Part shown: positions 25,614 to 44,526 of the stretch, piece after piece | How the letters are laid out: every line of letters starts with the position of its first letter | Position numbering within the stretch: position 1 is the stretch's first letter | Assembly (NCBI GenBank): GCA_922989275.2 | Contig: OV277871.1 | Location: 27,848,693-27,912,692 of the forward strand | Length of the DNA stretch: 64,000 nucleotides | Direction of reading: 5' to 3' | From: Gari tellinella | Taxonomy: Eukaryota; Mollusca; Bivalvia; Cardiida; Psammobiidae | Notes under the pieces: model-generated | What the model was told of the DNA's origin: nothing | The model's input: the letters and a program-made list of their open reading frames with translations, nothing else | Database searches by the model: none | Made by a program: the position numbers and the translations under genes

Positions 25614-25692
25614 ATGTTTGCATCATAGTATAATGGAAGCCAACTTAGTATTCATTAGCACTGTCAGAGCTAACCTTTAGACTGTTTCATCT

Positions 25693-26218: not shown

Positions 26219-26269
26219 TTGGACTCTGTTATTTTCTCATAAATGACTAGTTTACAATGTAAAGAGTAT

Positions 26270-26627: not shown

Positions 26628-27141
26628 AGCAGTTGGCATTTTAATGAAGAACAAAAGTACAACAAAAATCTTCTGTTTATTTCTCCTGTATTTAGCTGCC
26701 ACTTTTATTTAAAACTGCATAGTCCCAATTCTTTAGTGTGATCACTTTATGTGCGTGACTATATAGAGTTCAAAGGATTAACATAATTTTTGTCAAGTAA
26801 TAATATTTGATGGTTAGGTTTTGTTTTAAGAGCTGACCTGTCATACTTGTTTTAGGCTTTATGTTGATTTCACTGTTTGCAATAGTTATGATGGCCGTGT
26901 TAACGGCGAAAAGAATGACTTTTCAAAACAGAAGCTGGTGGTATTAAACAAGACAGTTTTATGTGGAAATTGAAGAAGAAAATGGTAAAAGGCCTGTTCC
27001 CTTGGTAATAAAACTGTGTTCTTATGGTATTTAACCAGTTTTCATAGTGCCATTTCTATACATTTTACTAGGAGGTCTTGTTTTACTTCCATCCCAACCC
27101 CCAACAATGATTTGTTTCCGGTGTTTTAGACAGGTGGTTGC
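26628..27141. other. single-copy-looking intron sequence
   Basis: Nothing recognised. Confidence 0.35.
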
Positions 27142-27159
27142 TTAAAGAAAATTACCCCA

Positions 27160-27373
27160 TTAACCCTTAGCCTGCCAGTCACGACTATAGCTCCATATGC
27201 AAACAGCTTGGAACCGGATGATACGCCGAGTAACTCGGCGTCTCATCTGGATCCAAGCTGTTTGACACTCGGACAACATTTTCAGCAATTTTGAGCAACT
27301 TTGAAGCACTTTGAAACTTGAAGCAGACAAGAAATATAGCAGACGACAATTTATTTGGCGGGCTAAGGGTTAA
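27160..27373 (+). mobile_element. family C MITE (C2 subtype) nested in A
   Basis: 214 bp, TTAACCCTTAGCCTGCCAGT to TTTGGCGGGCTAAGGGTTAA. Apex ACGCCGAGTAACTCGGCGT. TTAA duplicated at the borders. Confidence 0.93.
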
Positions 27374-27393
27374 TACATCTTTTTATGCTTTTT

Positions 27394-28560
27394 AGCTCAC
27401 CTGAGCTAGCTCAGGGTGAGCTTTTGCTATCCTTGAATGTCCGTCGTTCGTCGTCAACAATTTTAGTGTTTACACTCTAGAGGCCACAATTTTTATTCAA
27501 TCTTTCTCAAACTTGCTCAGATTGTTAATTAACATTAGAGTTCGGATGAGTTCGATTCTGGTTTAAATCAGACCAATAGATCAAGAGTTATCAACCTTTG
27601 AATTGCTGAAAATGCCATATTTAACAGTGTTTACACTCTAGAGGCCACAATATTTATCCAATCTTTCTTAAACTTGCCCAAATTGAATAATACCACAAGA
27701 TTTCAGATGAGTTTGATTATGGTTGAAATTAGACGTACAGATCAAGAGTTATCTACCTTTGAATTGCTGAAAATTCCATATTTAACAGTGTTTACACTCT
27801 AAAGACCACAATTTTTATCCAATCTATCTCAACCTTGCTCAGATTGTATATTACCATAAGAATTCAGAGGAGTTTGATTATGGTTGAAATCAGAATTGCT
27901 GAAAATGTAAAATTTAACAGTGTTTACACTCTAGAGGCTACAATATTTATCTAATCGTTTTCAAACTTGCCCAGATTGTATATTACCATAAGAGTTCAAA
28001 GGAGTTTGATTATGGTTAAAATCAGACCAATAGGTCATGAGTTATCTACCTTTGAATTGCTGAAAATGACATATTTTAGGGTTTTTACACTCTAGAGGCC
28101 ACAATTTTTATCCAATCTTTTTCAAACTTGCCCAGATTATATATGACCATAAAAGTTCATATGAGGTTGATTATGGTTGAAATCGGACTAATAGGTAAAG
28201 AGTTATCTGCCCTTGAATTGCTGAAAATGCCATATCTAACAGCGTTTACTCTCTTGCAACTACAATTTTCAATGTATTTTGATTATACTTTCACACAAAG
28301 TATATAGCTATAAGTTCTCGAAGGAGTGCAATTATTGTTGAAATCTATTCATTGTGGCAATAGTTATCTGCCCTTGATATACTTTGAAATGCTAGAAAAT
28401 GCTTCAATTCAGTATTTTTTAGGCTCTAGTTATCTGCCCTATTTACATGCTATACTACAAATTTGAATGAATTTAGATTTAAACGGGCGAAACAGAAAGG
28501 TAAAGCTATCAGACTTCAGTACAACAGGTGAGCGATATCAGGGCCTTCAGGCCCTCTTGT
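27394..28560 (+). mobile_element. family G repeat, 1.17 kb
   Basis: 5' hairpin AGCTCACCTGAGCTAGCTCA and GGGTGAGCT; 3' end CAGGTGAGCGATATCAGGGC then CTTCAGGCCCTCTTGT. The body is about five units of 140-160 bp marked by AACAGTGTTTACACTCTAGA and GAGTTATCTACCTTTGAATT. This unit differs from that in the other two G copies although the ends are the same. Confidence 0.75.
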
Positions 28561-28754
28561 AATTTATTCCTCCAATTAGGAAAATAGTTCCAGTTTATAC
28601 AGTAAAATATTTATCATCAGAAAACATTTTCTATATTCTAGTAGATAATTGTTTAAAGCAGACTGAAAGCCTTAAGGCGCATTCTGCTTTACTTTCAACA
28701 TGCTTTAAGTGGTCACCTACCTTCAATTATAGAAACAGGCTATGGGGTAATGGG

Positions 28755-28830
28755 TTAAAGCAGGTTGAAAGTAAAGCAGAACGTTTTTTGAGGGTGCTTT
28801 CTGCTTTACTTTCAACCTGCTTTAAGCATT
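28755..28830. repeat. A-type hairpin core abutting the previous element
   Basis: Begins at the shared TTAA: TTAAAGCAGGTTGAAAGTAA, apex region AACGTTTTTTGAGGGTGCTTT, then TTTACTTTCAACCTGCTTTA. Confidence 0.75.
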
Positions 28831-28860
28831 CATCTATCAAGATGTAGGTAAATTTGTTAT

Positions 28861-29310
28861 CCAATAGTCTCTTTCTACTGTTAATGACAGCTGACCATTT
28901 GAAGCATGTTGAAAGTAAAGCAGGATGCATCTTAACCCTTTCCCCCATAGAAGCGCCTTTTAGCACATTAATTTTATTCCTTTACTGATGAAAATAGTTC
29001 CAATTTATACAGTCATAAATATGTATCATACAAAATATTTTCTATATTCTAGCAGATTATAGCTTAAAGCAGGCTGAAAGTAAAGCAGAATGCGCTTAAG
29101 GCGCATTCTGCTTTACTTTCAACCTGCTTTAAGAGAACACCTATATTCAATGCTAGAAACAGGCTATGTGGGAAAGGGTTAAGGTATATTCTGATTTACT
29201 TTCTTTTGCTTTTATCTGGTAGAATATAGAGTGTTTATTTATGGTGCACATTCATGAAAGTATAAAGTGGATCTATTTTCTTCAGTGTAGAAATAAAGTA
29301 AAGGCACCTA
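28861..29310 (+). mobile_element. family A MITE split at its apex by another A
   Basis: The left arm (TGAAGCATGTTGAAAGTAAA...GGATGCATC) stops at TTAA 28932. The right arm (GGTATATTCTGATTTACTTT) resumes after 29182 and continues through TAGAATATAGAG to about 29310. Confidence 0.8.
28932..29182 (-). mobile_element. family A MITE nested in the apex of another A
   Basis: 251 bp, TTAACCCTTTCCCCCATAG to TGTGGGAAAGGGTTAA. Apex AATGCGCTTAAGGCGCATT. Nearly identical to the copy at 43686. Confidence 0.92.
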
Positions 29311-29478
29311 TATAGATCTCAATTTCCCTGACTTGGGTGTCTCAATATGAAGTTGATGTTACAGGGTTATTAAATCACAACAACCAACCAGCCAACCAAC
29401 CATGAGCAATATTATGATTATCAGTATTTGAAATATTTCTTCACCTGCAGCTGTATATTTGTCAATAGATTGATATTC

Positions 29479-29940
29479 TTAAACCCATTACCCCATAGCC
29501 TGTTTCTAGTTTTGAAAATTGTTGACTGCTTGAAGCAGGTTGAAAAAGTAAAGCAGAATGTGCCTTACAGTGGGCCCTGCTTTACTTTTCTGTCTACTTT
29601 AACCCTTCTCCCATAGAAGCACCTTTCCACACATTCAGTTTATTCCTCCACTGAAGAAAATAGCTCAAATTTATACAGTCATAAACATTTACCATAAGAA
29701 ATATTTTTTGTATCTAGTAGCAGATGGTAGCTTAATTAAAGCAGGCTGAAAGTAAAGCAGAATGTACTTGAAGGCGCATCCTACTTTACTTTCAACCTGC
29801 TTTAAGTGGCATCTGTCTTCAAAACTAGAAATGGGATATGGAATAATGGGTTAAGCTACAATCAGCTAGAAATATTTCTTATGGTACATATTCATGACTG
29901 TATATAAAGTGGAACTTTTTTCTTCAGTGTACAGTAATGA
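29479..29940 (+). mobile_element. family A MITE split at its second stem base by another A
   Basis: TTAAACCCATTACCCCATAG through the diverged second arm (TTTTCTGTCTACTTTAA), then after 29854 GCTACAATCAGCTAGAAATA and the normal right part. Confidence 0.8.
29599..29854 (-). mobile_element. family A MITE nested at a stem-base TTAA
   Basis: 256 bp, TTAACCCTTCTCCCATAGAAG to GGAATAATGGGTTAA. Apex GTACTTGAAGGCGCA. The borders fall at the host site CTTTAA|GCTAC. Confidence 0.88.
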
Positions 29941-30086
29941 ATATGCTTTAAAAAATTATATTCTATTTTCTGACAGAGGGTAGCTTAAAGCAGGCTGAAA
30001 GTAAAGCAGAATGCTTTAAGGTGCATTCTGCTTTACTTTCAACTGCTTTAACCCTTAGCCCGCCAAATAAATTGTCGTCTGCTATA

Positions 30087-31868
30087 CAGGGCTGCACAAA
30101 TAATTTTTTTAGCCACTTGTCCAGGACAAGTGACTTTCAAAAAGTCACTTGTCCTGAACAAAAAGCCACTTGTCCAACTTTTTATAAACCTGATTCGAAA
30201 ACATGGATCCATGTAAATGCCGGCAAAAGGGAACCCATTAAATTGATACTTTCTCCTCTGAAGACGGAGCATGGCTGCCTATATGGCGAGGTAATTGAAA
30301 ACAGCTATGCACGTAATCCTCCAGCTTGACAGACAATAATGTCTGTACCAAGCTGTCCTGTGAGTGTTAAGCACAGGTACGCCAACAACAACAACAACAA
30401 CATTGATACTTTCGATTTGAGCATATCAATTTGTTTTAATTTTTATCAGTTATAAAGACAATATGGTATTTATATATTTTACTTATTATTATTAATATTA
30501 TAATTAAAATTATGATATGAATATACATGTTTACTCTATGAAACATAATTAACTAGACTATCACACCTTATCACTTAAATGTAGACTATTTCTTTAACCC
30601 ATTACCCCACAAATTTGCATGTATGCCTTTAAGCTAAAGTAAAAAGATCCACACTTAAGATCTACATTTTAATTAAAATAAGGGATCCTTAATGACAGGG
30701 ACACTTTTCACCCAAAGCTTTAATTCTCACAATTGATATCTCTATATTAGTTATACACTTGTTGGTTTTGACATGAACATTTTAAAAGACTTTCCCTTAA
30801 GTAGCCATGGCAACCAGGGTTCTACATGGTTCCAATATATCTAAATAATTTTAATATAGGACCATCTAATGAACATAATTACCTTTAGTCTACTTGTGCC
30901 TTCAATATTCAATAACGAATGAAATTTAAGATTGTTTCCCTTTTGTCTCTTAATTCTAATTTCTATGTTAAACATTTGAAGTGTGTAAAAGTTATCTTTC
31001 CTTTATTTCAAACTGTCACAATTTTCTGTAATTTACAGATTTTCTTTAAATTCACATTTGCAAAATCATCATCTACACTTTGATTTGCTTAAATCATGTT
31101 TACATAACATTTTAAAGACACATTTCCTACATAAAAATCATAAACCTATTTATTAGATATAAAAATAATGTTGCTATTTAGACAAAAGAATGCTACCTTT
31201 TTCACTCTAACTTCTTAATCACTCTATATTATAAGGACAAACGATCCTGTATTAATTTGTATGCAACATTCAACAACAACAAAAATATTAATTTGTTTGT
31301 AATATAGCGTATGCAACCGATTTTACATGTACACGACTACTCATCAACACGTTGAAATAAAAATCTTTGTGCCCTTGTCTACACACTTGAATTGTCAGAA
31401 GTTTACAAGCTTTGATTGACCATCAGATGCTGGTTTTGTGTAAGATGGAGAGTACCTTTGTGTAACACATTGAGATTACGTAATCAAAGGGTGGTGCCGC
31501 GGAAGCGTGTGAGAGACTGACAGTCACACGAAATTGACATAAAACAGTCATGTAGATCTACTGTGAATTTGTGGTAGTTGACACGCGGATTAGCTTGATG
31601 CCTAGGGGACATGGATAACTGGAGTATAAGACCTTTGCACAGCAGGTAGGCTAGAAGCACTCGCGGCATTTTATGATTCAGGCCACCTCACTAACCTGAA
31701 GTCCCGTAGTGTTAATCAACCAGCTATTTTTGAAATTTGCCGATTTTGATCGGGACTAAAATTGGAAAATAGTCACTTGTCCGGGACTAGATTCTAGAAA
31801 ATAGGCATCTGTCCGGAGCCATTTCCCACTTGTCCGGGACGTCGGGCTATGGGATTTGTGCAGCCCTG
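30087..31868. mobile_element. family P, 1.78-kb non-autonomous DNA transposon, innermost layer
   Basis: Perfect 15-bp inverted ends CAGGGCTGCACAAAT / ATTTGTGCAGCCCTG with a 5-bp duplication CTATA (30082-30086, 31869-31873). The C2 copies elsewhere show the uninterrupted target. CACTTGTCC motifs cluster near both ends (30115-30178 and 31770-31840). Inside are an (AAC)n run near 30385 and AT-rich filler. A 102-codon frame overlapping the left end and a 61-codon minus frame at 31484-31669 resemble no transposase I know. CAGGG ends with a 5-bp duplication suggest a hAT-like origin; this is inference. Confidence 0.88.
30385..30404. repeat. (AAC)n microsatellite
   Basis: Six AAC repeats inside the P element. 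Confidence 0.85.
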
Positions 31869-32123
31869 CTATATTTCTCGTCTGCTTCAAGTTTCAAAGT
31901 GCTTCAAAGTTGCTCAAAATTGCTGAAAATATTGTCCGAGTGTCAAACAGCTTGGATCCGGATGAGACGCCGAGTTACTCGGCGTCTCATCCGGATCCAA
32001 GCTGTTTGCATATGGAGCTATAGTTGTGAGTGGCAGGCTAAGGGTTAAATGGTTATCTGTCTCCAAAACTAGAAGCAGGCTCTGTGAGTATGGGGTAATG
32101 GGTTAATGTAATGGAAAGGTATA

Positions 32124-32330
32124 CAGTGGAGAAAACGTTATTCTTTCCCAATAAACGCGTTTACGCTAAAACTATTATTTGCAGTGCAAACAGTTTGGAA
32201 CCAGATCAGACGCCACCAAGATAAACATTAATCATCAGAATTGTCCAAAAGTTGTACTTTTCTACGTTTTAGTGTTTTGCGTTTGCGTACGTTTGCGTTT
32301 AAACGGGAAAGAATAACAGATTCTCCACTG
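32124..32330. mobile_element. family Q MITE, TA-flanked
   Basis: 207 bp between TA dinucleotides, ends CAGTGGAGAA / TTCTCCACTG. Subterminal GTTATTCTTTCCC and GGGAAAGAATAAC mirror each other. It contains a truncated GCAAACAGTTTGGAACCAGA stem with its ATCAGACGCC start but no return arm. Single copy. Confidence 0.82.
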
Positions 32331-32586
32331 TATCTATTGAGTACATGGATTAAGGAAGCAAAAATGTTGTTCATTACAGTACTGAAGAAGATTAATAAGA
32401 AACTCAATTTAGCTTGATGCTTTGAAAGTGAATTATTGAAAGATTAGATTAGGAGTCAATTTATTGTTCATATCAGTAGTAAATATCCAATAGATGTGAA
32501 TCTAATTTAGCCACTTTCTTTATGTGGGTGGAAGCGTTAATAATAATAGGAAATACTGGTAAATTGTTCTTAATGAAAAGTAAGCA

Positions 32587-32626
32587 GTGTCCCAGATATG
32601 GGGAGTATTTTTAAAACTGAAATATT
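32587..32626 (-). mobile_element. left fragment of family B
   Basis: GTGTCCCAGATATGGGGAGTA and a few following bases, cut by the next A element. Confidence 0.55.
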
Positions 32627-32880
32627 TTAACCCTTACCTCCATAACCTATTTCTAGTTTTGAATATAGGTGACCACTTAAAGCAAGTTGAAAGTAAAGCA
32701 GAATGTGCCTTAAGGCTCATTCTGCTTTACTTTCATTGTGCTTTAAGCTAGTCATCTGCTAGGATTTTGAAAATATTTCTTATGGTTCATTTTCATGACG
32801 GTATAAATTGGAACTATTTTCTACAGAGAAGGAATACATTAGAGGCATAAAAAGGTGTATTAATGGGGGTAATGGGTTAA
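32627..32880 (+). mobile_element. family A MITE
   Basis: 254 bp, TTAACCCTTACCTCCATAAC to GGGGTAATGGGTTAA. Apex TGTGCCTTAAGGCTCA. Confidence 0.9.
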
Positions 32881-33015
32881 ACCTCATAGCCACACTGTTT
32901 TCAAAGAGCATCAATATATTTTACATTCCATATATTTTGCAAGCATCTATATATTTTACAAGCAGTTTAGGGTTAAAACCCAGTAGGGCTATATTGAATG
33001 ACAACAGTATGAGGG

Positions 33016-33214
33016 TGTTTTCATGACTGTGGCCCGTATATACAGAGCACCAGATAAGGGTATAGTTTTTCAAAAACTAAAATCGAAGAGACGATTCTAA
33101 TGATTAGTAACACCATAGGATTTGATGCTAAAATAAGTGAGAAAATGTTGGATTTGTGAAGTTTACTCCCTCTTATCTGGAGCCCTGTTTTCATGACAGT
33201 GGCCGGTATATAGG
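33016..33214. repeat. 27-bp direct repeat abutting a family B copy
   Basis: TTTTCATGACTGTGGCCCGT plus ATATA ends at 33042; TTTTCATGACAGTGGCCGGT plus ATATA starts at 33188. Both abut the B element. Confidence 0.88.
33043..33187 (-). mobile_element. family B MITE between long direct repeats, first arm deleted
   Basis: CAGAGCACCAGATAAGGG to CTTATCTGGAGCCCTG, 145 bp. Only the second palindrome arm (GAAGAGACGATTCTAATGAT) remains. Confidence 0.87.
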
Positions 33215-33388
33215 CAGGCTTGTTACTTAATCACCTGTCACAGTTGTACCAAGTACTAATGACTGAAACCACTGCTCTAATTGTTTGATATCTAATTGTT
33301 TCATGTTGTTTTTGTCCCCGTTGTTTCTAAGTAGGATTTACGTCCGCTCAAAGCCATGTAATGATTGTTTGATGTTTTCCAGAGTCTA

Positions 33389-33514
33389 AGGTTATAATTA
33401 AAGCTTTTGAGTTGAGAGTCTGAGATCATTCTCAAGTATTTGACTGGTAGAATTAGAGCTTTTCGCTCAAATCTGACCCAAGTAAATGCTTGAGAACAAC
33501 CTCAGACTCAACTC
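33389..33514. mobile_element. family F palindromic element
   Basis: AGGTTATAATTAAAGCTTTT and GAGTCTGAGATCATTCTCAA are answered by GCTTGAGAACAACCTCAGAC and TCAACTC. The left and right ends are unequal in length. Confidence 0.72.
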
Positions 33515-33518
33515 TGGC

Positions 33519-33707
33519 CAGGCTTCTGGTAACAGAGTAAACTAAACATTTGCTTACATTTTATCCTTGATGTCTCCACCAAATTCTGTGGTATGACTAC
33601 TCAAAGAGACGATTCTAATGACTGTAATGAGTAGTCACACCATAGGGATTAAGGTAGTCAAAAGGATTTATAGATTTGAAAATACCTTCCTTATATGAAG
33701 CACCGTG
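33519..33707 (+). mobile_element. family B2 element
   Basis: CAGGCTTCTGGTAACAGAG to CCTTATATGAAGCACCGTG. The palindrome is GTGGTATGACTACTC / GAGTAGTCACACCATAGG. It lies 10 bp before the next B. Confidence 0.65.
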
Positions 33708-33717
33708 AGTGTGCCGA

Positions 33718-33905
33718 CAGGGCTCCAGATAAGAGGGAGTAAACTGAACAAATCTAACAGTTTCTCACTCATTTTAGCACCAAATCCTATGGTGTTACTA
33801 CTCATTAGAATCGTCTCTTCGAGACGATTCTAATGAGTAGTGACACCATAGGGTTTAATGTAGAAATAAAGATTTTACTTTTTAAAAAACTCATCTGGAG
33901 CCCTG
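33718..33905 (+). mobile_element. family B MITE with 6-bp TSD
   Basis: 188 bp, CAGGGCTCCAGATAAGAGG to CTCATCTGGAGCCCTG. TSD TGCCGA at 33712-33717 and 33906-33911. Apex TCTCTTCGAGACG. Confidence 0.94.
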
Positions 33906-33910
33906 TGCCG

Positions 33911-34048
33911 ATGCTTATAAATGTGTTTGAGATGAGTGAGATCATTCTCAAGCTTTTGATTGGTCAGATTTGAGCATTTTGTTCAAATTTGACCAATCAA
34001 CTGCTTGAGAAGGATGGATCTCAGACTCAACTCAAATGGTTTATAAAC
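33911..34048. mobile_element. family F palindromic element
   Basis: CTTATAAATGTGTTTGAGAT, TTTTGATTGGTCAGATTTGA, then mirrored TCAAATTTGACCAATCAACT and CTCAAATGGTTTATAAAC. It follows directly on a B element. Confidence 0.8.
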
Positions 34049-34204
34049 ATGGGCCCTGGAATTATTTTTGTTAAATCTCAATTACACTCTTGGGGAATTG
34101 CTCACAATAGATGACTGATGGAACTTGTGGCAGAGCAGTAACCGTGACAACTTGACAACTTTATGCTCGGCTCTCTTGTGAGACACTCTAAACCTTAATG
34201 CCTC

Positions 34205-34412
34205 TAACCCTTAACTTGCAAAACTATTGTCTGCTTTAAATTAATTGTTTGGCAAGAAAGCATGTAAATTCAGGATTTCAGTTTCTGACTGATGAAACCT
34301 CAAAAAGAGTCACAAAAACAGCTGGGATCCGGATCCGACCCAGAGTTACTGTATGTCAGATGTGGATCCAAACTGTTGCCATGTGCATTGAAGTTTGGTG
34401 TCAATGGGTTAA
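34205..34412. mobile_element. family C MITE, diverged
   Basis: TAACCCTTAACTTGCAAAAC to GTGTCAATGGGTTAA. Hairpin remnant CAGCTGGGATCCGGATCC / GTGGATCCAAACTGTTGCC. Confidence 0.65.
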
Positions 34413-34603
34413 GGATTAATTGTAATTAATTTCTGCATATTTAAGCACTGGGCTAGGTGTATACTAATGATGGACCACTGTTCCATGTAACAGTTAGCAT
34501 TAACAGAAATGGACTGGATGCTCAATGTAGCTGGGTTGATTTGTGTTAAGTTTTCAATGGAACTGGATTTTACCATATTACTCTCAGGTATTTGTAAAGG
34601 AAT

Positions 34604-34782
34604 CAGGGCTTCAGAGACTGAGCATTTCCAAGCTTTTCTCCTTTATATGTCCACCAAAACCCTATGTTGTGACCACTCATTAGAATAGACAGTATTAATG
34701 AGTTGTCACAACAAAGTGTTTGGTGATGAAATAAGAAATGAGAAAGTTAGTATTTGAAATACCCACCTTATCTGGAGCTCTG
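34604..34782. mobile_element. family B2 element
   Basis: CAGGGCTTCAGAGACTGAG to CTTATCTGGAGCTCTG. It carries CCACCAAAACCCTATGTTGT and a shortened palindrome (CATTAGAATAGACAGTATTAATG). Confidence 0.75.
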
Positions 34783-34808
34783 GGAGTCCAGATAAGGCCA
34801 ATAGATTG

Positions 34809-35068
34809 TTCAACCATTTACGCCATGAATACGCCTTTTTATGCCTTTTTATGCCTCCACAACAGAAAATAGTTCCTTTTTATACAGTCATGAGTTACTT
34901 AATATATGTACCATAAGAAATATTTTTAATATCCTTGTAGAAAGTAACTTAAAGCAGGCTGAAAGTAAAGCGAAATGCGCCTTAAGGCGCATTCTGCTTT
35001 ACTTGCAACCTGCTTTAAGTTATCACCTGTTTTCAAAAACAGAAACAGGCTATGGGGTAATGGGTTAA
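34809..35068 (-). mobile_element. family A MITE
   Basis: TCAACCATTTACGCCATGAAT to GGGGTAATGGGTTAA, 260 bp, apex TGCGCCTTAAGGCGCA. Confidence 0.88.
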
Positions 35069-35069
35069 A

Positions 35070-35152
35070 CGACAGGTGACTAAAGCAAGGTGAAAGTTGG
35101 ACAGAAAGCTCCTTCAGTTTAGTGGTTGTGATAGAGAGGTTATACTGTACAG
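35070..35152. mobile_element. half of a family L element
   Basis: GACAGGTGACTAAAGCAAGG, AAGCTCCTTCAG, then TGATAGAGAGGTTATACTGT, which is the family L terminus. Confidence 0.65.
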
Positions 35153-35160
35153 TCAGTTTT

Positions 35161-35231
35161 GTTGAACATACCCGTATTTCAAAGTTAAAACCTGGCTAAG
35201 CCTTTTAACTTTGAAATATGGGTATGTTCGA
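35161..35231. repeat. family R hairpin 146 bp before the exon 2 acceptor
   Basis: GTTGAACATACCCGTATTTC / GAAATATGGGTATGTTCGAC, with AAAGTTAAAA / TTTTAACTTT inside and loop CCTGGCTAAGCC. A shorter relative is at 63884-63911. Confidence 0.85.
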
Positions 35232-35377
35232 CTTGACCCAGCATGAAATAATGCAGTTCATATGTCGAACTATCGGATGGTTCAAGTTAAAGGAGTTCGA
35301 GATATCGAAGTTTGACTTTAATTGTGCATTCTTGTGTTTGGTACTGACTAAACATTCCTTTCTTTTGATCGTTTCAG

Positions 35378-35511
35378 ATATTCAGGAATTCTATGAATGC
35401 ACACTTCTGGATGAGACCAAAGACAGCAACCAGAAAACTGCAGAGACATTACAAATGGTAATGAAGTGGGAGAAAGAGCCTCCAATTATCACCTCAACAC
35501 TCAAGTCAGAG
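35378..35511 (+). CDS. dlg: Discs-large, exon 2 of 3 in window (end of L27 domain and following linker)
   Basis: 134-nt exon, acceptor GATCGTTTCAG before 35378. With the G carried over from exon 1 it reads DIQEFYECTLLDETKDS, then QKTAETLQMVMKWEKEPP, then ITSTLKSE. It completes the last L27 helix (FQALL-DIQEFYE across the splice) and matches the QKTAETLQ...KWEK continuation I remember from fly Dlg. The exon enters in phase 1 and leaves in phase 0, matching exon 3. I place the donor at 35512 (GAG|GTAAGT). A GTAATG at 35458 would give a shorter exon but would drop the conserved KWEK segment. The last 39 nt are unit one of the 39-bp tandem array, so the donor is repeated downstream; use of the next donor (35551) would add 13 codons in frame, and the third (35590) would include a TAA at 35584. 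Confidence 0.88.
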
Positions 35512-36174
35512 GTAAGTGTACCATTTCTCAACACCACATTGAAGTTAGAGGTAAGTCTGCTAATATTTACCTCAACACTCAAGTAAGAGGTAAGTCTACC
35601 AATTCTCAACACAACATTGAAGTTAGAGGTAAGTCTGCTAATAATTACCTCAACACTCAAGTTAGAGGTAAGTCTACCAATTCTCAACACAACATTGAAG
35701 TTAGAGGTAAGTCTGCTAATAATTACCTCAACACTCAAGTAAGAGGTAAGTCTACCAATTCTCAACACAACATTGAAGTTAGAGGTAAGTCTGCTAATAA
35801 TTACCTCAACACTCAAGTTAGAGGTAAGTCTACCAATTCTCAACACAACATTGAAGTTAGAGGTTAGTCAGCTAATAATAACCTTAACACTCAAGTTAGA
35901 GGTTAGTCTGCCAATAATAACCTCAACACTCAAGTAAGAGGTAAGTCTAAAATTTCTTACCTTTACACTCAGATTAGAGGTTAGTCTGCCAATAATAACC
36001 TTAACACTCAAGTTAGAGGTTAGTCTGTCAATTAAAACTTAAACACTCAAGTAAGAGGTAAGTCTACCAATTCTTACCTCAAAACTCAAGTGAGAGGTTA
36101 ATCTGCCAATATTAAACTCAACACTTAAGTCAGAGGTATGTTTACCCAATTATTTCCTCAATTCTCAGGTCAAT
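35473..36174 (+). repeat. 39-bp minisatellite carrying the exon 2 splice donor, 18 units
   Basis: Donor-like GT dinucleotides preceded by AGAG fall at 35512, 35551, 35590 and every 39 bp to 36136: 17 sites with no indel. Eleven read GTAAGT, four GTTAGT, one GTTAAT and one GTATGT. Units alternate between two types (ACCTCAACACTCAAGTTAGA and TCAACACAACATTGAAGTTA), giving a 78-bp higher-order period in the first half. Because 39 is a multiple of three, long open frames appear on both strands; these are repeat artefacts. Confidence 0.95.
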
Positions 36175-36678
36175 AGTAAGGTACTAGATGTGTGCCGTAT
36201 AACTTAAATTGAAACGTCTAAGAAATGGTCAGAAAAATATTGCAGCCTAATAAAATCTTTAACTATTTTTGTGTGACTAAGACAGGACAAAGGAATAAAA
36301 GCGAGATTGCAGTGTTTCTTTTCTACTTACATGCCACTAGAGTTCAATGGATTAACTCATACCTCATAGTCTGTTTCTAGTTTTGAATATAGTAGCCCAC
36401 TTAAAGCAGGTTGAAAGTAAAACAGAATGTGCCTCAAGGCACATTCTGTTTTACTTTCAGCCTGCTTTAATCTATTCTCTGCTAGAATATAGAAAATATT
36501 TCCTATGATTTTTTATTTGTAAAAGTATAAATTGGAATCTATTTTCTTCAGTAGAGGAATAAATTAAAGGCGTAAAATGGTGTATTTATGGGATAATTGG
36601 TTCAGGTGTGAAAAAACATTTCTATCAGCATTTCTATAAAGCAAAGTGTAAGTGAAGCTGATTTATAATTTTTTTCAG
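35512..36678 (+). other. dlg: 1.17-kb dlg intron
   Basis: Phase 0, GTAAGT at 35512 to TTTTTTTCAG at 36678. It holds the rest of the minisatellite, a short unique part (36175-36351) and one family A copy. Confidence 0.82.
36352..36604 (+). mobile_element. family A MITE in the short dlg intron
   Basis: TTAACTCATACCTCATAGTC to GGGATAATTGGTTCA, 253 bp. Stem AAGCAGGTTGAAAGTAAAAC, apex TGTGCCTCAAGGCACA. It ends 74 bp before the exon 3 acceptor. Confidence 0.88.
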
Positions 36679-36873
36679 AAACAGAATTCCATTGTTGATG
36701 AAGATCTTCCCCCTCCCCCTCCAGAGCTGGTACACGATGATGTAGTTCCTGACAAGCAGCCCGCCTCCTTCCACAGACCTAACAACATTGGGGGCCCTCG
36801 GGAAGTCCTGCCCCCACAGGTACCTATACAGACCTACCCAGACACACAGGACCAGGAGGCTCTACCCCCACCG
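36679..36873 (+). CDS. dlg: Discs-large, exon 3 of 3 in window (proline-rich linker)
   Basis: 195 nt, 65 codons, phase 0 at both ends, acceptor TTTTTTTCAG and donor CCACCG|GTAAGT. The peptide is acidic and proline-rich: DEDLPPPPPELVHDD, later REVLPPQVP and QEALPPP. Its base composition is much more GC-rich than the intron. It lies where DLG proteins have a variable linker between L27 and PDZ1; mammalian DLG1 has alternatively spliced proline-rich inserts there that bind SH3-type partners. Sequence conservation in this linker is weak, so the assignment rests on phase, splice sites and position. A second possible donor is inside the exon (CCCCCACAG|GTACCT at 36820), which would shorten it by 54 nt in frame. 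The PDZ exons are not in the window. Confidence 0.78.
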
Positions 36874-36901
36874 GTAAGTCCACATAGTAAATAACCCTTT
36901 A

Positions 36902-37092
36902 CAGCTCCAGATTAGGTGGTAATTTCAAATATTACCTTTCTTATGTCTTCAATAAAACCTATGTTTTGACCACTCATTAGAATCGTCTCTTTGAGACGAT
37001 TCTAATGAGTGGTCACAACATAGGATTTGGTGGAGACATAAAGGAGAAGATGTTGGAGATGTTCAGATTACCTACTCTTATCTGGAGCCCTG
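36902..37092. mobile_element. family B2 element, best copy
   Basis: CAGCTCCAGATTAGGTGG to CTTATCTGGAGCCCTG, 191 bp. Palindrome TATGTTTTGACCACTCATTA with apex CGTCTCTTTGAGACG, then GGTGGAGACATAAAGGAGAA. It begins 29 bp after exon 3. Confidence 0.85.
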
Positions 37093-37191
37093 TCCCTTTT
37101 AGTCCTTGTAGAAAATTGCTTTGAAGTGTTTGTTCAACACTGGCTTGATTGTGGAGTAATTTCCTGATGTCATGAAAGAAGAGAACTGGTT

Positions 37192-37449
37192 TTAACCCAT
37201 TACCCCTGGCCAGAAATACACCTTTTTTACGCCATTAATTATTCATCCACTGAAGAAAATAGTTCAATTTTAATATACAGTCATGAATTTTTACCACAGG
37301 AAATATTTTCTATATTCTAGCTGATTGTAGTAGCTTAAAGCAGGCTGAAAGTAAGCATATTGCTCCATTCTGTTTTACTTTCAACCTGCTTTAAGTGGTT
37401 ACACACCTTCATTACAGAGAGACAGGCTATGCATGGGGTAATGGGTTAA
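37192..37449 (-). mobile_element. family A MITE
   Basis: TTAACCCATTACCCCTGGCC to GGGGTAATGGGTTAA. The apex region is shortened to GCATATTGCTCC. Confidence 0.86.
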
Positions 37450-37462
37450 CTGTGGATTGAGA

Positions 37463-37655
37463 CAGAGCACCAGATAAGGGTAGTTTTTCAAATACTAAAA
37501 TCTTTATTTCTGAATTAAACCCTATGGTGTCACTACTCATTAGAATCGTCTCTTCGAGACGATTCTAATGAGTAGTAACACCATAGGATATGGTTCTAAA
37601 AAGAGTGAGAAAATGTTGGATTTGTTGAAAAAACTATCTCTTATCTGGAGCCCTG
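37463..37655 (-). mobile_element. family B MITE with 6-bp TSD
   Basis: 193 bp, CAGAGCACCAGATAAGGG to CTTATCTGGAGCCCTG. TSD TTGAGA at 37457-37462 and 37656-37661. Confidence 0.94.
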
Positions 37656-37844
37656 TTGAGATTGTTTTAAAGTTAGTAAAATGAGTTGTGTGGATTCTTG
37701 AAATTCTGAGGACATTCTTAAAATAGTTTCTTTTGAAATCGTTTCATATGATTCCTGGGAAGAAAAATACATGACCTTTCAGTGTTGTCTCAGTTGTTGC
37801 AGTTTTTGGTTTTGTATTGAAATCTACTATATACTGTTTGTTGA

Positions 37845-38022
37845 CAGGGCTCCAGATAAGAGGGAGAAAACTGAAAAAATCTAACATTTTCTCACTCATT
37901 TCAGCACAAATCCTATGATGTTGATACCCATTAGAATCGTCTCTTCGAGACGATTTTAATGAGTAGTAGCACCATATGATAAAGATTTTAGTTTTTAAAA
38001 TACTCCCCTTATCTGGAGCTCA
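37845..38022 (+). mobile_element. family B MITE with 6-bp TSD
   Basis: CAGGGCTCCAGATAAGAGG to CTTATCTGGAGCTCA. TSD TGTTGA at 37839-37844 and 38023-38028. About 13 bp lost after the palindrome. Confidence 0.9.
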
Positions 38023-38210
38023 TGTTGAGCAGTTATGAAGCTGGTTGATCAGGTTACATATTCCCTCAGATCTGTAATGTGTGTTTTGCTGATAAAATTG
38101 TAAGATTTCCTATCTTTTGTGGTTGTCTTTGGCCTACACACGGCACAGCTGCACTGTGAGTTGATGTCTCATGCAAGGTCAATCCTTGACTTTCCCTTCT
38201 TGACTTTCCC

Positions 38211-38404
38211 TTAACTCATTCACCCCTGAAACTTTTAATGGACAATTCCATTTTAAAAATATGTCTTGTCCATTATTGACTATTTAGGGGTGATTATAGA
38301 CCCTGATCTGAGGGCTCCCCTGTTGCATAGGACAAATGTAATCCTTACAGATACATTTTTTGTAAATGATGAGTATACTCATGACTAGGGTTGAATGTGT
38401 TCTA
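38211..38404 (-). mobile_element. family D2 element, one hairpin arm lost
   Basis: TTAACTCATTCACCCCTGAAA to GACTAGGGTTGAATGTGTTCT. One arm fragment (ATAGACCCTGATCTGAGGG) remains, plus a GATGAGTATACTCATGAC mini-palindrome. Confidence 0.7.
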
Positions 38405-38900
38405 AAAACCATTTCCCCCATGGAAGCGCTTTTTGGTGCATTCAATTATATCTTCCACTGAAGGAAATAGTTCCATTTTACACAGGAAAGAATGTGTCGT
38501 ATCAGAAAAAGTTTCTGTATCCTAGCAGATGATAGATTAAAGCAGGCTGTAAGTAAAGCAGAATGTGCCTTAAGATACACTCTGTCTTTCTTTCAACCTG
38601 TTTTACCTATCTTTAACCCTTTTCCCCATAGAAGCGACTTTTAGCGTATTTAATTTATTCCTCCGCTGAAGAAAATAGATCCAGTTTATGGCCTCATGAA
38701 CAATTACCATAACTGATATGTATATATAGGCTAGTAGATGGTATTTCAAAGTAGGCTGAAAGTAAAGCAGAATGTGCCTTCAGGCACATTCTGCTTTACT
38801 TTTAACCTGCTTTAAGTAATCACCTGTATTAAATGTTATAAACGGGTTATTGGGTAAAGGGTTAAAACTAGTAACAGGCTATAATGGAGTAAAAGGTTAA
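38401..38900 (-). mobile_element. family A MITE hosting another A
   Basis: CTAAAAACCATTTCCCCCAT through apex TGTGCCTTAAGATACA to TTTTACCTATCTTTAA, then after 38865 AACTAGTAACAGGCTATAAT and AGTAAAAGGTTAA. Confidence 0.78.
38613..38865 (-). mobile_element. family A MITE nested near the end of another A
   Basis: 253 bp, TTAACCCTTTTCCCCATAGA to GGGTAAAGGGTTAA. Apex TGTGCCTTCAGGCACA. Confidence 0.88.
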
Positions 38901-38935
38901 CCTTTGACTTTCCCTTATTCCGGTACCAAATTTCT

Positions 38936-39070
38936 TGTTCTTAGTTTTGAGGACAGGTGACTGAATAAACCGGATTTAAAGTAAAGCAGAATTGATGTAT
39001 TCTGCTTAATATCATCCTGCTTGAAGTGGTCACCTTTCTTTAAAGCTAGAAACAGGCTATAGGGTTTTAA
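38936..39070. mobile_element. A-derived element with two identical halves
   Basis: CTTAGTTTTGAGGACAGGTGA on the left is mirrored by TCACCTTTCTTTAAAGCTAG on the right, so both flanks are the CCTGTTTCTAG-side block of A. The stem is decayed. Confidence 0.6.
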
Positions 39071-39086
39071 GAATCCATTTTGTCTT

Positions 39087-39300
39087 TTAACTCATTCAGC
39101 CATAGCAACGAGTATACTCGTCATGAACAAAAAGTTTACCTGTGACGAGTATACTTGTCCTATACAAATAGTGTAGACCCTGGTCAGGGTCTGCACTGTT
39201 TGTCATTTTGTAAAATATTGTAAAAAATCATCTCTAAATAGTCAATCTTGGACTAGACTTAATTGAAAATGGTGCTTTAAAATTTTCAGGGTGAATGAGA
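39087..39300 (+). mobile_element. family D2 element
   Basis: TTAACTCATTCAGCCATAGC to TTTTCAGGGTGAATGAGA. It contains GACGAGTATACTTGTCC and the hairpin AGTGTAGACCCTG / CAGGGTCTGCACT with almost no apex. Confidence 0.72.
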
Positions 39301-39589
39301 GGTGCATGTGCAAAGTAAGGCATGACATGACTTAGTGACAGACTTACCAGTGTATCTTCTTTTTAAGGGTTTAATATAATTGTTCTTCACCGGTTTTGAC
39401 TACAATTTCAAGACCTTAGTTAGGGGAAGGCAAAAGTGAGTGCTTGTCGTGCTAGAGACACATCTCGTGAGCTTTGGGGAGTAGCGGACTGTTATAAAAA
39501 CAGGAGGCATAATGACAGGCTGCCTGATGGTGTTAATAAGGTGACGTCTTCTAGTTCACACACACAGTTTACTAGACTAGGCATCTAGG

Positions 39590-39712
39590 GTCGAGATTAG
39601 AGACCAGATAAAACTGATAATTTTATACTTTTCCACCTTATGTCTCCACCAAAACACTTGTTATGACTACCTATTAGAATTTTTTTCTTTGAGATCCTCC
39701 CAGCTCCTTGTG
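39590..39712. mobile_element. left half of a family B2 element
   Basis: GATTAGAGACCAGATAAAAC, GTCTCCACCAAAACACTTG, then GACTACCTATTAGAAT; no return arm. Confidence 0.55.
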
Positions 39713-39714
39713 CC

Positions 39715-39962
39715 TTAACCCATTGCCCCATAGCCTATTTCTAGTTTTGAAAACAGGTGACCTCTTAAAGCAGGCTGAAAGTAAAGCAAAATGTGCCTTA
39801 AGGCACATTCTGATTTGCTTTCAGCCTGCTTTAAGCCACCATCTGTTTGGATATAGAAAATATTTCTTCTGATACATATTTGACTGTATAAATTTGATAT
39901 TTCCTTCAGTGGAGTAATTAGTCAAAAGCGTAAAAAGGAGTATTTATGGGGTAACGGGTTAA
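39715..39962 (+). mobile_element. family A MITE
   Basis: TTAACCCATTGCCCCATAGC to GGGGTAACGGGTTAA, 248 bp, apex TGTGCCTTAAGGCACA. Confidence 0.9.
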
Positions 39963-40142
39963 AAACGAATTTGTGGTTACCTAAATGTTGCAAGCAGTTT
40001 GGATTCAGATTAGAGTTGTCATGGAGATAAAAAACTGTTTGAGAAACTGCCAATATTTTGAAAACAAATATATATATTTGAGAAAAAAAGTATTTTCAGA
40101 ATCACAGCAGATGATAATATTACTAAGCATGCAAAGAGTTGG
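39959..40142 (+). mobile_element. family C relic joined to the previous A
   Basis: TTAAAAACG, then GCAAGCAGTTTGGATTCAGA without return arm, and a CTAAGCATGCAAAGAGTT end typical of C. Confidence 0.6.
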
Positions 40143-40220
40143 CATGGCAACTGAAGAATCAGGAGACAGGATACTGCTTAATACTGTGAAGAAAGCTTTC
40201 TGCATTACTGCTCCTATCAC

Positions 40221-40440
40221 ACATCTAATTTAATTCCTACGCTGAAGAAAACATTTCCAATTTATACAATCATAGATTATGTTTTGGAAGAAATTTTTTC
40301 TTCATTCTAGCAGACGATAGCTTAAAGCAGACTGAAAGTAAAGCAGAATGCACCCAAAGGTGCATTCTGCTTTACTTTCAGCCTGCTTTAAGTTGTCTTC
40401 TGTCTTCAAAACTAGAAACAGGCTATGGAGTAATGTGTAT
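40221..40440 (-). mobile_element. family A MITE with paired apex changes
   Basis: CACATCTAATTTAATTCCTAC to GGAGTAATGTGTATT. The stem is perfect, with apex AATGCACCCAAAGGTGCATT: the left-arm CACC is matched by GGTG on the right, unlike the common GCC/GGC. Confidence 0.85.
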
Positions 40441-41012
40441 TAGTCATTTATGGCTTCAACATCAACTATAGTCATGCCAGAGAATAACTTTTGTAGCATC
40501 CTGTACTTCTTCCGCAAGTTTAAATGGAAAGCGCTCTGTCAGCAAGTGTAATATTTTGCCACCACAAGTTGCCTCCCTTGGGACTAAGCTATGTACCAGC
40601 TAATGAGACTTGTCATTCTGGACCTGTAGAGTTCACTCCCTTGAATTCCAAGGAGTATTTGTGAAGAGTTCTGTCCCTTTAGGTGAAGTCTTAGACGATG
40701 ACAGTATATTGAGATTATTGGTAAATTTGAGGTTGTTAATGTGATAAAAGATAGTCCTGTAACTGGGAAAAAGCATAATGAAGACTCCTGGGAAATTTGT
40801 ATCGGCTGTTTACTGCTGAATGCAGGACAGAGGTAATGAGGAGGGCTTTCTGCATTATTCCATCCAACAGTAAACCACAAGTCTTACAGACAGCCCAGTC
40901 ATCTTCTTCTTGAATCGTTTTTGAGTCATTAAAAAAATTTGAGTTATGAATAAGAGTCATCTGCTTAAAATGTCATCTGTTAAAATTCTTTTTTTATATA
41001 GGAAATTTACAA
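40441..41012. other. single-copy-looking intron sequence
   Basis: Nothing firmly recognised. Open minus-strand frames at 40584-40880 and 40736-40960 overlap each other in different frames, which argues against either being coding. Confidence 0.35.
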
Positions 41013-41085
41013 ACGGATTGACAAAATGTTTGGATCTCCATCAGACACAGAGTTTCTCGCGTCTGATCAGCAGCCAAATATTTGT
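41013..41085. repeat. C-type hairpin, degenerate
   Basis: ACAAAATGTTTGGATCTCCA and GCAGCCAAATATTTGTCA arms, apex TCAGACACAGAGTTTCTCGCG. Confidence 0.55.
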
Positions 41086-41104
41086 CAAAATAACATGCAT
41101 TCAA

Positions 41105-41313
41105 CAGGGCTCCTGATCAGCTGAGTATTTTAAAAACTAAAATCTGTATGCCTGCTCAAAACCCTATGGTGTCACTACTCATTGTCACTACTCATTAGAA
41201 TTGTCTTAAAGAAACGATTCTTATAAGTAGTCACATCAATGAGTTTGGTTTAAACATGAAGTTGAAAATGTTTAAATATTTCGTTCACTCCCTGAAGCCT
41301 TGTCTGGAGCCCC
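41105..41313 (-). mobile_element. family B element with internal 14-bp duplication
   Basis: CAGGGCTCCTGATCAGCTGA to TGTCTGGAGCCCCAT. GTCACTACTCATT occurs twice in tandem before the palindrome. Confidence 0.72.
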
Positions 41314-41655
41314 ATTTCGATAGCTTTAGTTCCAGCGCTAAAAGGGTTAACACTGGGTTTGAGTGTAGGAAAATTATGTGGATAGCACTTTCCATATAGC
41401 TATTAGGCCTGGTATAAATCCTGTACATTGCCTGAAGTGCCTAATTAGGGATCAGATGAACCACTTTGGTGTAGAGATCAGGGGTTGATTGATGACGGCT
41501 AAAGTCTGTGTTGATTACAGCCTCGGGGACGCTCAGTCTTGATATGCCAGGAACCAGCTAGTCATACCAATATGTTATGTAGAGATTGTACCTTTCCAAT
41601 CCAGGGAATGGATGCCTTATGGTTCTTATATTGAGGAGTAGGTAGAAGGACTCTA
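41314..41655. other. single-copy-looking intron sequence
   Basis: Nothing recognised. Confidence 0.35.
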
Positions 41656-41910
41656 TTAACCCTCTGAACCATAGTCCCGCATATTGGCGTCCTTTTCAAA
41701 CAGTGTACATGTGAATAGTACACTTAACCTATGCAAACGGTGAAGACCAAGATCAGAGGGCTCCGAAAGGAGCCCTCTGATCAGGGTCTTCACTGTTTGT
41801 CAGAATTCCAAACATCAATTGACCAAAACAACCCTTAAAAGTCAGAAATCGACTAGACTAAAATGGAAACTGGAATTGTCCGTTTAAAGTTTCAGGGAGG
41901 AAAGAGTTAA
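41656..41910 (+). mobile_element. family D MITE
   Basis: 255 bp, TTAACCCTCTGAACCATAGT to CAGGGAGGAAAGAGTTAA. Apex GGGCTCCGAAAGGAGCCC. Confidence 0.92.
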
Positions 41911-42158
41911 GGCCCTTTTGTAGAGTTGATTTGAGCTTGGGATAAAGTTGTGTTAATCGTTTCAAACTGTTTTGATCCTGGTCAGGTGAGAAGCAACTCA
42001 TGTTTTTTGTCATGCTCCAAACTGTTTTGTCTGTCATCTTAAAAATCTGCAGATACGAAGAAATGTCAACTTTCCTAAGTTTGAAGTAGACACCATTTTA
42101 AGCAGAGGATGTTTATTTATCCCTATAAGATTTGGAGAGAAATAAATGAGAAATATAA

Positions 42159-42349
42159 CAGAGCTCCAGATAAGGGGAGTTTTCTATAACTAAAATCTTT
42201 ATTTCTGTATTAAACCCTATGGTGTCAGTACTCATTAAATTGTCTTGAAGAGACGATTTTAATGAGTAGTAACACCATAGGATTTGGCGCTTAAATGAGT
42301 GAGAAAGTGTTGGATTTATTTAGTTTAATCCCTTTTATCTGGAGCCCTG
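42159..42349 (-). mobile_element. family B MITE
   Basis: CAGAGCTCCAGATAAGGGG to TTTATCTGGAGCCCTG, 191 bp. Apex TTGTCTTGAAGAGACGA. Confidence 0.9.
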
Positions 42350-42447
42350 AATAAGCAAAATCAAGGACTAATAAAGTAGGAGTAGAAGCACTGCCTAAAT
42401 CTTGGTCAGTGAAATACCCAGAAGAGGCAATAGCTTTGTAGGATTGA

Positions 42448-42666
42448 TTAACCCTTTCCCCCATAGACCCTTCTTATCTCCCCTTTTGATGCCTCTATCT
42501 TGGGAAGTATTGAAAACTTTTCCTGCATTTTAACAGGTGACTCCTTAACACAGCCTGAAAATAAAGCAGAGCGCTCCTGTAGGAGCTTTCTGCTTTACTT
42601 TCAGCCTGCTTTAAGCAGTCATCTGTCTTAAACACTGAAAAACAAACTATAGGAGGGAGGTGTTGA
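42448..42666. mobile_element. A-like element with different flanks
   Basis: TTAACCCTTTCCCCCATAGAC to CTATAGGAGGGAGGTGTTGA. The stem TTAACACAGCCTGAAAATAA has apex GCGCTCCTGTAGGAGCTTT. The flanking blocks (TTTTGATGCCTCTATCTTGG) are not those of A. Confidence 0.7.
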
Positions 42667-42753
42667 CAGGAAAATAGAGAAGATTTTAGAGGAAGATGTA
42701 GAGGATATGGATATCAGATACATACAGTCATTCTTTTCCCAGAAGTCATAGCA

Positions 42754-43007
42754 TTAACCCATTACCCCATAGCCTGTTTCTAGTTTTGAAGATGGGTGAC
42801 TACTTAAAGTAGGTTGAAAGTAGAGCAGAATGCACCTTTAAGGCGCATTCTGCTTTACTTTCAGCCTGCTTTAAGCTACCATCATCTAGAATATAGAAAA
42901 TCTTTCTAATGATACATATTCAAAACTGTATAAAACGGAACTATATTCTTCAATGGAGGAATGATTTGAAGCCGTAAAAATGTGTTATTTATTGGGTAAT
43001 GGATTAA
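42754..43007 (+). mobile_element. family A MITE
   Basis: 254 bp, TTAACCCATTACCCCATAGC to GGGTAATGGATTAA. Apex TGCACCTTTAAGGCGCA. Confidence 0.9.
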
Positions 43008-43272
43008 GCGAAACCATTGATAGAATGGTAGAGCATGTCAAAATAGTTTGGATCCTTATCAGATGCTGTTGTCACTAAGTTCATAATTATGCTGAAATGA
43101 AAATGTGGCATCTGATGTTTTAGTCTGCACTATTAGAGAGGTTTTTTCTCTCAAGACAATTCTCCAGAAAGAAATGGACTGAGAATATTTTCAATCCCAT
43201 AATGCCTAGCTCAGCTTTTGTTTCTCTCTGATTAACTAACCCTTATAGATGTTGGAACTATACAAATATCCT

Positions 43273-43595
43273 TTGCAAACAGTGTAGACCCTAATCAGAG
43301 GGCTCCTTTAACCCTTTACCCAATAGCCTGTTTCTAGTTTTGAAGATATGTAACCAATTAAAGCAGGTTGAAAGTAAAGCAGAAGGCGCCTTAAGGCGCA
43401 TTCTGCTTTACTTTCAGCCTGCTTTAAGCTACCTTCTGCTAGGAATTATAAAATATTTCTTATCGTACATGTTCATGACTGAACAAATTGGAACTATTTT
43501 TTTCAGCGGACGAATAAACAAAATGCGCTAAACGTCGCTCCTATTGGGGAAAGGGTTAAAGGAGATCTCTAATTAGGGTTTACACTGTTTCTTAT
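43273..43595. repeat. D/E-type hairpin split at its apex by family A
   Basis: GCAAACAGTGTAGACCCTAA...GGGCTCC precedes TTAA 43308; GGAGATCTCTAATTAGGGTT and TACACTGTTTCTTAT follow TTAA 43556-43559. Removing the A copy gives GGCTCCTTTAAAGGAGATC as the apex. Confidence 0.82.
43308..43559 (+). mobile_element. family A MITE nested in a D/E hairpin apex
   Basis: 252 bp, TTAACCCTTTACCCAATAGC to GGGGAAAGGGTTAA. Apex GGCGCCTTAAGGCGCA. Confidence 0.92.
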
Positions 43596-43685
43596 ACTTT
43601 TAAATACCGGTATTTTGGGGACAAAGCCCTTGAGAGTCCATGTAATCTGGTTATTGATCAGAAATCAGTCATTTTTCAGAGTTCA

Positions 43686-43936
43686 TTAACCCTTTCCCCC
43701 ATAGAAGCGCCTTTTAGCGCATTAAGTTTATTCCTTCACTGAAGAAAATAGTTCCAATTTATACAGTCATAAATATGTATCATACAAAATATTTTCTATA
43801 TTCTAGCAGATGGTAGCTTAAAGCAGGCTGAAAGTAAAGCAGAATGCGCTTAAGGCGCATTCTGCTTTACTTTCAACCTGCTTTAAGTGGACACCTATAT
43901 TCAATACTAGAAACAGGCTATGTGGGAAAGGGTTGA
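43686..43936 (-). mobile_element. family A MITE
   Basis: TTAACCCTTTCCCCCATAG to GTGGGAAAGGGTTGA, 251 bp. Apex AATGCGCTTAAGGCGCATT. The terminal TTAA has become TTGA and is shared with the next C. Confidence 0.9.
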
Positions 43937-44134
43937 CCCATTTTATGCGGGATACACTTTTAGGTGTACCTCTAGGCAAACAGTTTTGATCCCAGATCAG
44001 GCCCCACATTGTTTGCTGCTAAGTCAATACTCTATCAGAAACTGCTAAAATCTTTTGCAAATATTTGAGTTATTCCCGCTGCAGACAACATTTTAAAATG
44101 GCCGCCAAATATTACCCAGCATGCAATGGGTTAA
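43933..44134 (+). mobile_element. family C MITE, apex deleted
   Basis: TTGACCCATTTTATGCGGGA to CCCAGCATGCAATGGGTTAA. GCAAACAGTTTTGATCCCAG and ATCAGGCCCCACATTGTTTGC; most of the second arm is gone. Confidence 0.78.
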
Positions 44135-44333
44135 ACAAACCAGCATTGTAAGGGTTAATTCCAGTGGGTCCATCAGTCATAGAAAAAACAATCGACATCC
44201 CCATTTATACAATGGACTGATAAATGGAAAACAAACAGTATGGGCAAGATAATCTATTATTTAACTGACTTGACACTTATACATTCAGATTTACAAATTT
44301 CTTCTGGTGAGCTCATGGGAGAAGTTTCAAGAA

Positions 44334-44526
44334 GAGAGCTCCAGATAAGAGCGAGTATACTGAACAAATCTAACAATTTCTTACTTATTTCAGCACCAAA
44401 TCCTATGGTGTTACTACTCATTAGAATCGTCTTTTCAAGACGATTCTAATGAGTAGTGACACCATAGGGTTTTACACAGAAATAAAGTTTTAAAGTTTTG
44501 AAATACTCCCCTTATATGGAGGCTTG
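44334..44526 (+). mobile_element. family B MITE with 6-bp TSD and paired apex change
   Basis: 193 bp, GAGAGCTCCAGATAAGAG to TATATGGAGGCTTG. TSD CAAGAA at 44328-44333 and 44527-44532. Apex CGTCTTTTCAAGACG differs from CGTCTCTTCGAGACG by one change in each arm that keeps pairing. Confidence 0.92.

Follow-up and report, generated by a model that had tools for sequence, protein, structure and literature searches.

Tandem repeats that span an exon-intron boundary and copy its splice sites are already known, and in intron 7 of human F7 a run of 37-bp repeats whose number varies is described, with the real donor in the first of them (PMC6627357). According to the same report, only the donor of the most upstream repeat is normally used, and mutation of this first donor leads to exon skipping and to the use of downstream cryptic donors, so that the spare F7 donors do not simply replace the first (PMC6627357). 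Elsewhere, 27 intron modifications by tandem repeats are reported in human duplicated genes (PMC2812944), dual-specific AGGT splice sites are described as arrayed in tandem in UBC (PMC10809524), a review treats intron gain through tandem duplication (PMC3443670) and a border-crossing duplication is described in potato (PMC4974935). The choice of a donor among near-identical neighbours is a basic question of splicing, namely whether the first, the last or the strongest site is taken. In this connection, oriented scanning is reportedly what Borensztajn et al. described in 2006.

The locus considered here lies in a 64,000-nucleotide stretch of DNA from the bivalve Gari tellinella (henceforth referred to as the window, to which coordinates refer unless otherwise indicated). 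TRF identified a minisatellite on the + strand at 35482–36161 with a period of 39 bp and 17.4 copies, and made a second call at a period of 78 bp and 8.6 copies, which results from two unit types alternating through units 2–9. At each 39-bp step from 35512 to 36136 (35512 + 39k, where k is 0–16) the sequence reads AGAG/GT (the slash marks the exon-intron cut), in 17/17 sites with zero indels between them. GTAAGT accounts for 11 of the 17 donors (units 1–9, 12 and 15), the others being GTTAGT (units 10, 11, 13 and 14), GTTAAT (unit 16) and GTATGT (unit 17), and units 3, 7, 12 and 15 contain an additional CAA/GTAAGA 7 bases upstream of their own donor. Our count thus agrees with the perfect 39-bp register of 17 donors given in the initial annotation, which had nevertheless missed, beyond the 17 regular units, a decayed 18th unit (about 36145–36184, + strand) that carries an additional base and a displaced ATA/GTAAGG whose GT is at 36176. 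Among the inner units, 4, 6 and 8 are identical to one another and 5 is identical to 9, and the outer units 1 and 17 have TCAGAG before the donor in common and pair on the neighbour-joining (NJ) tree. Since the outer units pair and the inner units are near-identical, growth appears to have been internal and partly recent, and the pattern suggests that it proceeded by dimers (78 bp) and perhaps tetramers (156 bp). This repeat was not found elsewhere in the 1.6-Gb, 80-contig assembly at the sensitivity of the search, in which all 8 listed matches fell inside the array; we rejected a transposon or dispersed satellite because no further copy was found at that sensitivity.

Judged from its domains and relatives, the host gene is dlg/DLG1, as had been proposed initially: an L27_1 match is followed by a PDZ match in the assembled part (L27 to the start of PDZ1), the closest relatives are dlg proteins, and the gene is on these grounds a MAGUK. 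Most of the L27 domain is encoded by an exon at 383–514 (+ strand; PF09058 match G000:C16:27849074-27849205), which ends at a TAG/GTAGGG donor at 515 and holds the sole L27_1 match found in the assembly, such that dlg appears to be single-copy there. The following dlg exon (35378–35511, + strand, 134 bp) encodes the end of L27 and the start of the linker, and its translation, DIQEFYECTLLDETK...WEKEPPIITSTLKSE, agrees with orthologs P0001–P0003 and others. The last 30 bases of this exon are the coding part of unit 1, which consists of these 30 bases, matched in orthologs, and of 9 intron bases including the donor; the first unit is therefore the coding 3′ end of the exon, just as had been annotated. 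Taken from the donor at 35512, the intron is 1,167 bp long and leads to a linker exon of 195 bp in phase 0 (36679–36873, + strand), whose proline-rich product KQNSIVDEDLPPPPPEL... could be aligned to orthologs. Further dlg exons lie outside the window, at window-relative positions 110945–110977 (11 residues, PQGSDVEDGDY, a segment matched in many orthologs), 126441 and 130161, the last of which begins PDZ1. All six mapped exons can be joined in compatible phase to give a product that matches Pfam L27_1 and PDZ, and within 300 kb downstream the same strand of C16 bears two more PDZ matches. Because coding sequence precedes the L27 exon in orthologs, the label 'dlg exon 2' previously given to the exon at 35378–35511 is right as to the gene, but its number is valid only as a count within the window.

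The best relatives over 208 scored residues, among the 120 best of 7,324 proteins, were those of Mercenaria mercenaria (79%), Ruditapes philippinarum (74%) and Mya arenaria (68%), the first two of which we take to be venerid clams. At the exon tail, where the window encodes WEKEPPIITSTLKSE, Mercenaria and Ruditapes both have WEKEPPIITSTLKTE and P0014 has WERDPPIITSTLKSE. In the Mercenaria and Ruditapes proteins the tail, ending ...LKTE, directly abuts the K of KQN, and in P0014 the tail directly abuts KHN. An insertion of at least 13 residues at this exon join was absent in 28 of 29 aligned proteins, hand-picked with molluscs favoured among the 120 best of 7,324; the exception, P0063 (Pinctada), has an insertion of at least 13 residues at the join that is unrelated in sequence to the predicted array insert. 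A cruder pattern check, the spacing from a tryptophan to the proline stretch, was measurable in 83 of the 120 listed orthologs (37 were not measurable) and exceeded 22 residues in 26 of these 83, most of which are from bees and a sawfly, where the segment spans 53–59. Of two words taken from the 13-residue insert predicted for the unit 2 donor, NTTLK occurred in 0/120 listed orthologs and VSVP in one (P0024), where it is located further along the linker and away from the join. That the exon tail is kept in clam orthologs and is joined directly to the next exon indicates that the tail is ancestral and the array its offspring, i.e. that the array grew from the exon into the intron, the direction already assumed in the initial annotation. 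Capture in the opposite direction, with the tail recruited from an intronic repeat, was rejected since the clam orthologs share the tail.

The strength of the donors was estimated from ViennaRNA duplex energies with the U1 5′ end sequence, pseudouridines being left out of the model. Donor 1 (35512) had the best energy of the 17 donors, −12.6 kcal/mol, and is also the most upstream, followed by the ten other GTAAGT copies at −10.7 kcal/mol and the remaining six donors at −6.9 (GTATGT), −6.8 (GTTAGT) and −4.2 kcal/mol (GTTAAT). The lead of donor 1 is due to positions +7/+8, which are GT in donor 1 and CT in the other GTAAGT copies, and the weight of these positions in living cells we take to be modest. 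In the whole window, 17 of 3,735 + strand GT sites reach a U1 pairing energy of −10 kcal/mol or stronger; the array holds 11 of these 17 strong sites, which excludes chance. To read the frame, each donor was joined to the acceptor of the exon at 36679. The frame is open from the unit 1 donor (GTAAGT, 35512–35517, + strand), and it is open as well, with 13 additional residues VSVPFLNTTLKLE, from the unit 2 donor (GTAAGT, 35551–35556, + strand), the sole open-frame donor among units 2–17. Donors 3–17 all include the in-frame TAA inside unit 3 (35584–35586, + strand). The 13-residue extension had been anticipated correctly, as had the inclusion of this stop by the third donor, which extends to every donor after it. 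The exonic GT at 35458 also gives an open frame, 18 residues shorter; it was rejected as the true donor because it pairs with U1 at only −5.1 kcal/mol and drops 18 residues that are mostly kept by orthologs.

Donor 1 is very probably the site that is used; U1 pairing and the ortholog proteins both mark it as ancestral and predict it to be the main donor. Since it is the best U1 match, the most upstream site and consistent with orthologs, the simpler view is that it is used constitutively and that its copies are silent. By analogy with F7, in which only the first donor is normally used, 35512 would be used and the other copies spliced out. We consider it likely that the array is an exon-border donor minisatellite of the F7 intron 7 type whose copies are mostly silent; its anatomy, host gene, ancestral tail and frame outcomes are established, and the use of the first donor we infer. 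The last 30 coding bases and first 9 intron bases of the dlg exon would have been duplicated in tandem and then re-amplified, from 39 bp to a 78-bp dimer and perhaps to a 156-bp tetramer. The intron would in this way have come to open with further repeats of the exon's end and splice site, all in register, bringing the donors to 17. The spliceosome would take 35512, and the copies, being removed with the 1,167-bp intron, would be mostly silent. Counting against a preference for donor 1 are the reliance of its U1 lead on +7/+8 and the failure of local folding to give it any advantage, and counting against silent copies is the donor core from −2 to +2, unchanged in 17 units, with AGAGGT as the longest invariant run.

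The unit 2 donor has the same 9-base core as donor 1 (GAG/GTAAGT) and leaves the frame open, and these two features would also fit productive alternative donor choice, in which certain tissues or alleles would splice from 35551 and thereby gain 13 residues in the L27-PDZ linker, and splicing from later donors would consign the message to decay via the TAA at 35584. We regard this as unlikely, though it fares best among the alternatives: 35551 pairs with U1 more weakly than donor 1, the F7 precedent by analogy employs the first donor only, and the insert word NTTLK is missing from all 120 listed orthologs, the best of which is only 79% identical, so that none is apparently from the same species.

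A further alternative is that selection holds the copies, whether as decoys, as spare donors or as docking sites for U1 that strengthen exon definition. When the 17 units were placed on an NJ tree, the 9 donor columns took 4 of the 45 changes inferred (random-column p = 0.025), and on the UPGMA tree 6 of 52 (p = 0.078); contiguous 9-column windows were equally low in 2/39 and 4/39 cases, respectively. The core from −2 to +2, constant in 17/17 copies while other columns vary, had 0 changes on both trees (random-column p = 0.017), and the longest invariant run was AGAGGT (−4 to +2; p = 0.04). These p values take columns as exchangeable, the rows share descent, the tree itself is uncertain and the test was chosen post hoc; because the columns were so treated and the test followed sight of the data, the values are suggestive only. 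The invariant core hints that the copies may be non-neutral. However, GTAAGT has been lost in 6 of 17 donors, and recent homogenisation accounts for the likeness of units 2–9, so selection on the copies seems to us improbable. The expansion had initially been called recent or constrained: the near-identical inner units bear out growth that is partly recent, whereas the support for constraint is weak on either tree. Equally improbable, in our judgement, is a ladder of near-equal donors in which the core is selected and copy number in the population sets the ratio of normal dlg, the isoform with 13 more linker residues and decay-bound message, although variation in copy number between individuals is plausible given the near-identical inner units.

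The RNA of the array is predicted to fold better than its shuffles (z = −4.48, with 0/20 shuffles as low), and in the predicted fold the B-type units form ACCTC/GAGGT hairpins. The array donors are poorly accessible, with a probability of being unpaired of 0.0001–0.005 against a median of 0.011 for the 1,110 GT sites in 25001–45000, array included, and donor 1 is no more open (0.0002) than the copies (0.0001–0.005). No hairpin covariation beyond shuffles was detected in 12 of 17 units (11 distinct), 405 of 500 shuffles reaching the score; the five A-type units 2, 4, 6, 8 and 10 were left out of this test. As donor 1 is no more open and covariation in the 12 units is not above shuffles, donor choice by hairpin masking was rejected.

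The AGGT in 17/17 units and a unit length that is a multiple of three also recall the dual-use ladder described for human UBC (PMC10809524), in which units would act as both donor and acceptor and be kept or removed, here in multiples of 39. The context makes use of the array AGGT sites as acceptors unlikely: GAG stands before the cut, and pyrimidines make up 0.44–0.69 of the 16 bases before AGGT, compared to 0.69–0.81 for four acceptors of dlg (and 0.56 for another, where the count was shifted by one base). With in-frame stops in 5 of 17 units in addition, we give a ladder of this kind very little credence. Least credible of all is an assembly artefact, or a repeat collapsed or expanded, since ordered differences between units, diverged outside and near-identical inside, are not expected from assembly stutter, even though tandem arrays are error-prone in assembly, a single assembly lies behind the result and the copy number in it could be off.

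In the 264 kb that comprise the window and its surroundings, TRF listed 139 rows, of which 96 have a period of 10–120 (rows overlap, and one array can account for several). The donor consensus was present in 2 of these 96 rows, both of which are the dlg 39-bp array, and of the 139 rows only that array and a 194-bp duplication at PDZ1 overlap any of the six mapped exons. The period-194 tandem duplication lies outside the window (window-relative 129868–130257; G000:C16 about 27978560–27978949, L015), has an exact run of 196 bases and 100% matches in TRF, and duplicates most of the first PDZ1 exon together with its acceptor, the remainder of that exon and the donor following the second copy only; it is either a very recent event or an assembly fault. 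Two palindromic elements with like ends (TTAAAGCAGGYTGAAAGTAAA...), at 34949–35018 and 36401–36470, flank the exon and array, the latter being 94% identical to its own reverse complement, and an imperfect palindrome (35164–35229; 79%, ungapped) lies just upstream of the exon. A large tandem array at 50837–52717 (period 123, 15.2 copies, 93% matches) lies between the dlg exons at 36679 and 110945, and outside the window, at window-relative −84101 to −77971, about 73 copies with a period of 84 form another array; the unit length and letters of the latter recall, as we presume, zinc-finger repeats.

A conserved polarity gene can evidently tolerate such an array at the edge of one of its exons, and the array is most simply seen as a silent by-product of repeat growth that would nonetheless make a useful natural test of donor choice. 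F7 intron 7 is a natural test of this kind in mammals, and the dlg array would be another outside mammals, with 17 donors at a fixed 39-base spacing, a graded match to U1 and a frame that separates donor 2 (13 additional residues) from donors 3–17 (stop). A search of titles and abstract starts in open-licence PMC found no report of a dlg gene with such an array, a scope that does not establish its absence from print, and the layout itself is not unprecedented. In intron gain by tandem duplication, as reviewed, a splice-site border is likewise copied (PMC3443670), but no new intron is indicated in dlg, where an existing intron has acquired extra donors. The repeats described in human segmental duplications also straddle exon-intron boundaries and can alter splicing; they vary between recent paralogs and have transcript-backed new introns (PMC2812944), whereas dlg appears to be single-copy. 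UBC shares with dlg one AGGT splice-like site per unit and a length that is a multiple of three, but its units are described as 228-bp coding monomers used as donor and acceptor (PMC10809524), whereas the dlg units are mostly intronic, have a poor acceptor context and contain stops in 5 of 17, so that not every unit could serve as an open exon. The likeness is closest to F7, as far as that system is described: the unit lengths are near-equal, unit 1 spans the exon-intron border and carries the exon's donor, and later units repeat a donor in register. The gene and phylum differ, as do the 39-bp unit of dlg, a multiple of three, and its 17 donors. Both first-donor use and copy-number variation are reported for F7 (PMC6627357), whereas for the dlg array the former is predicted and the latter plausible.
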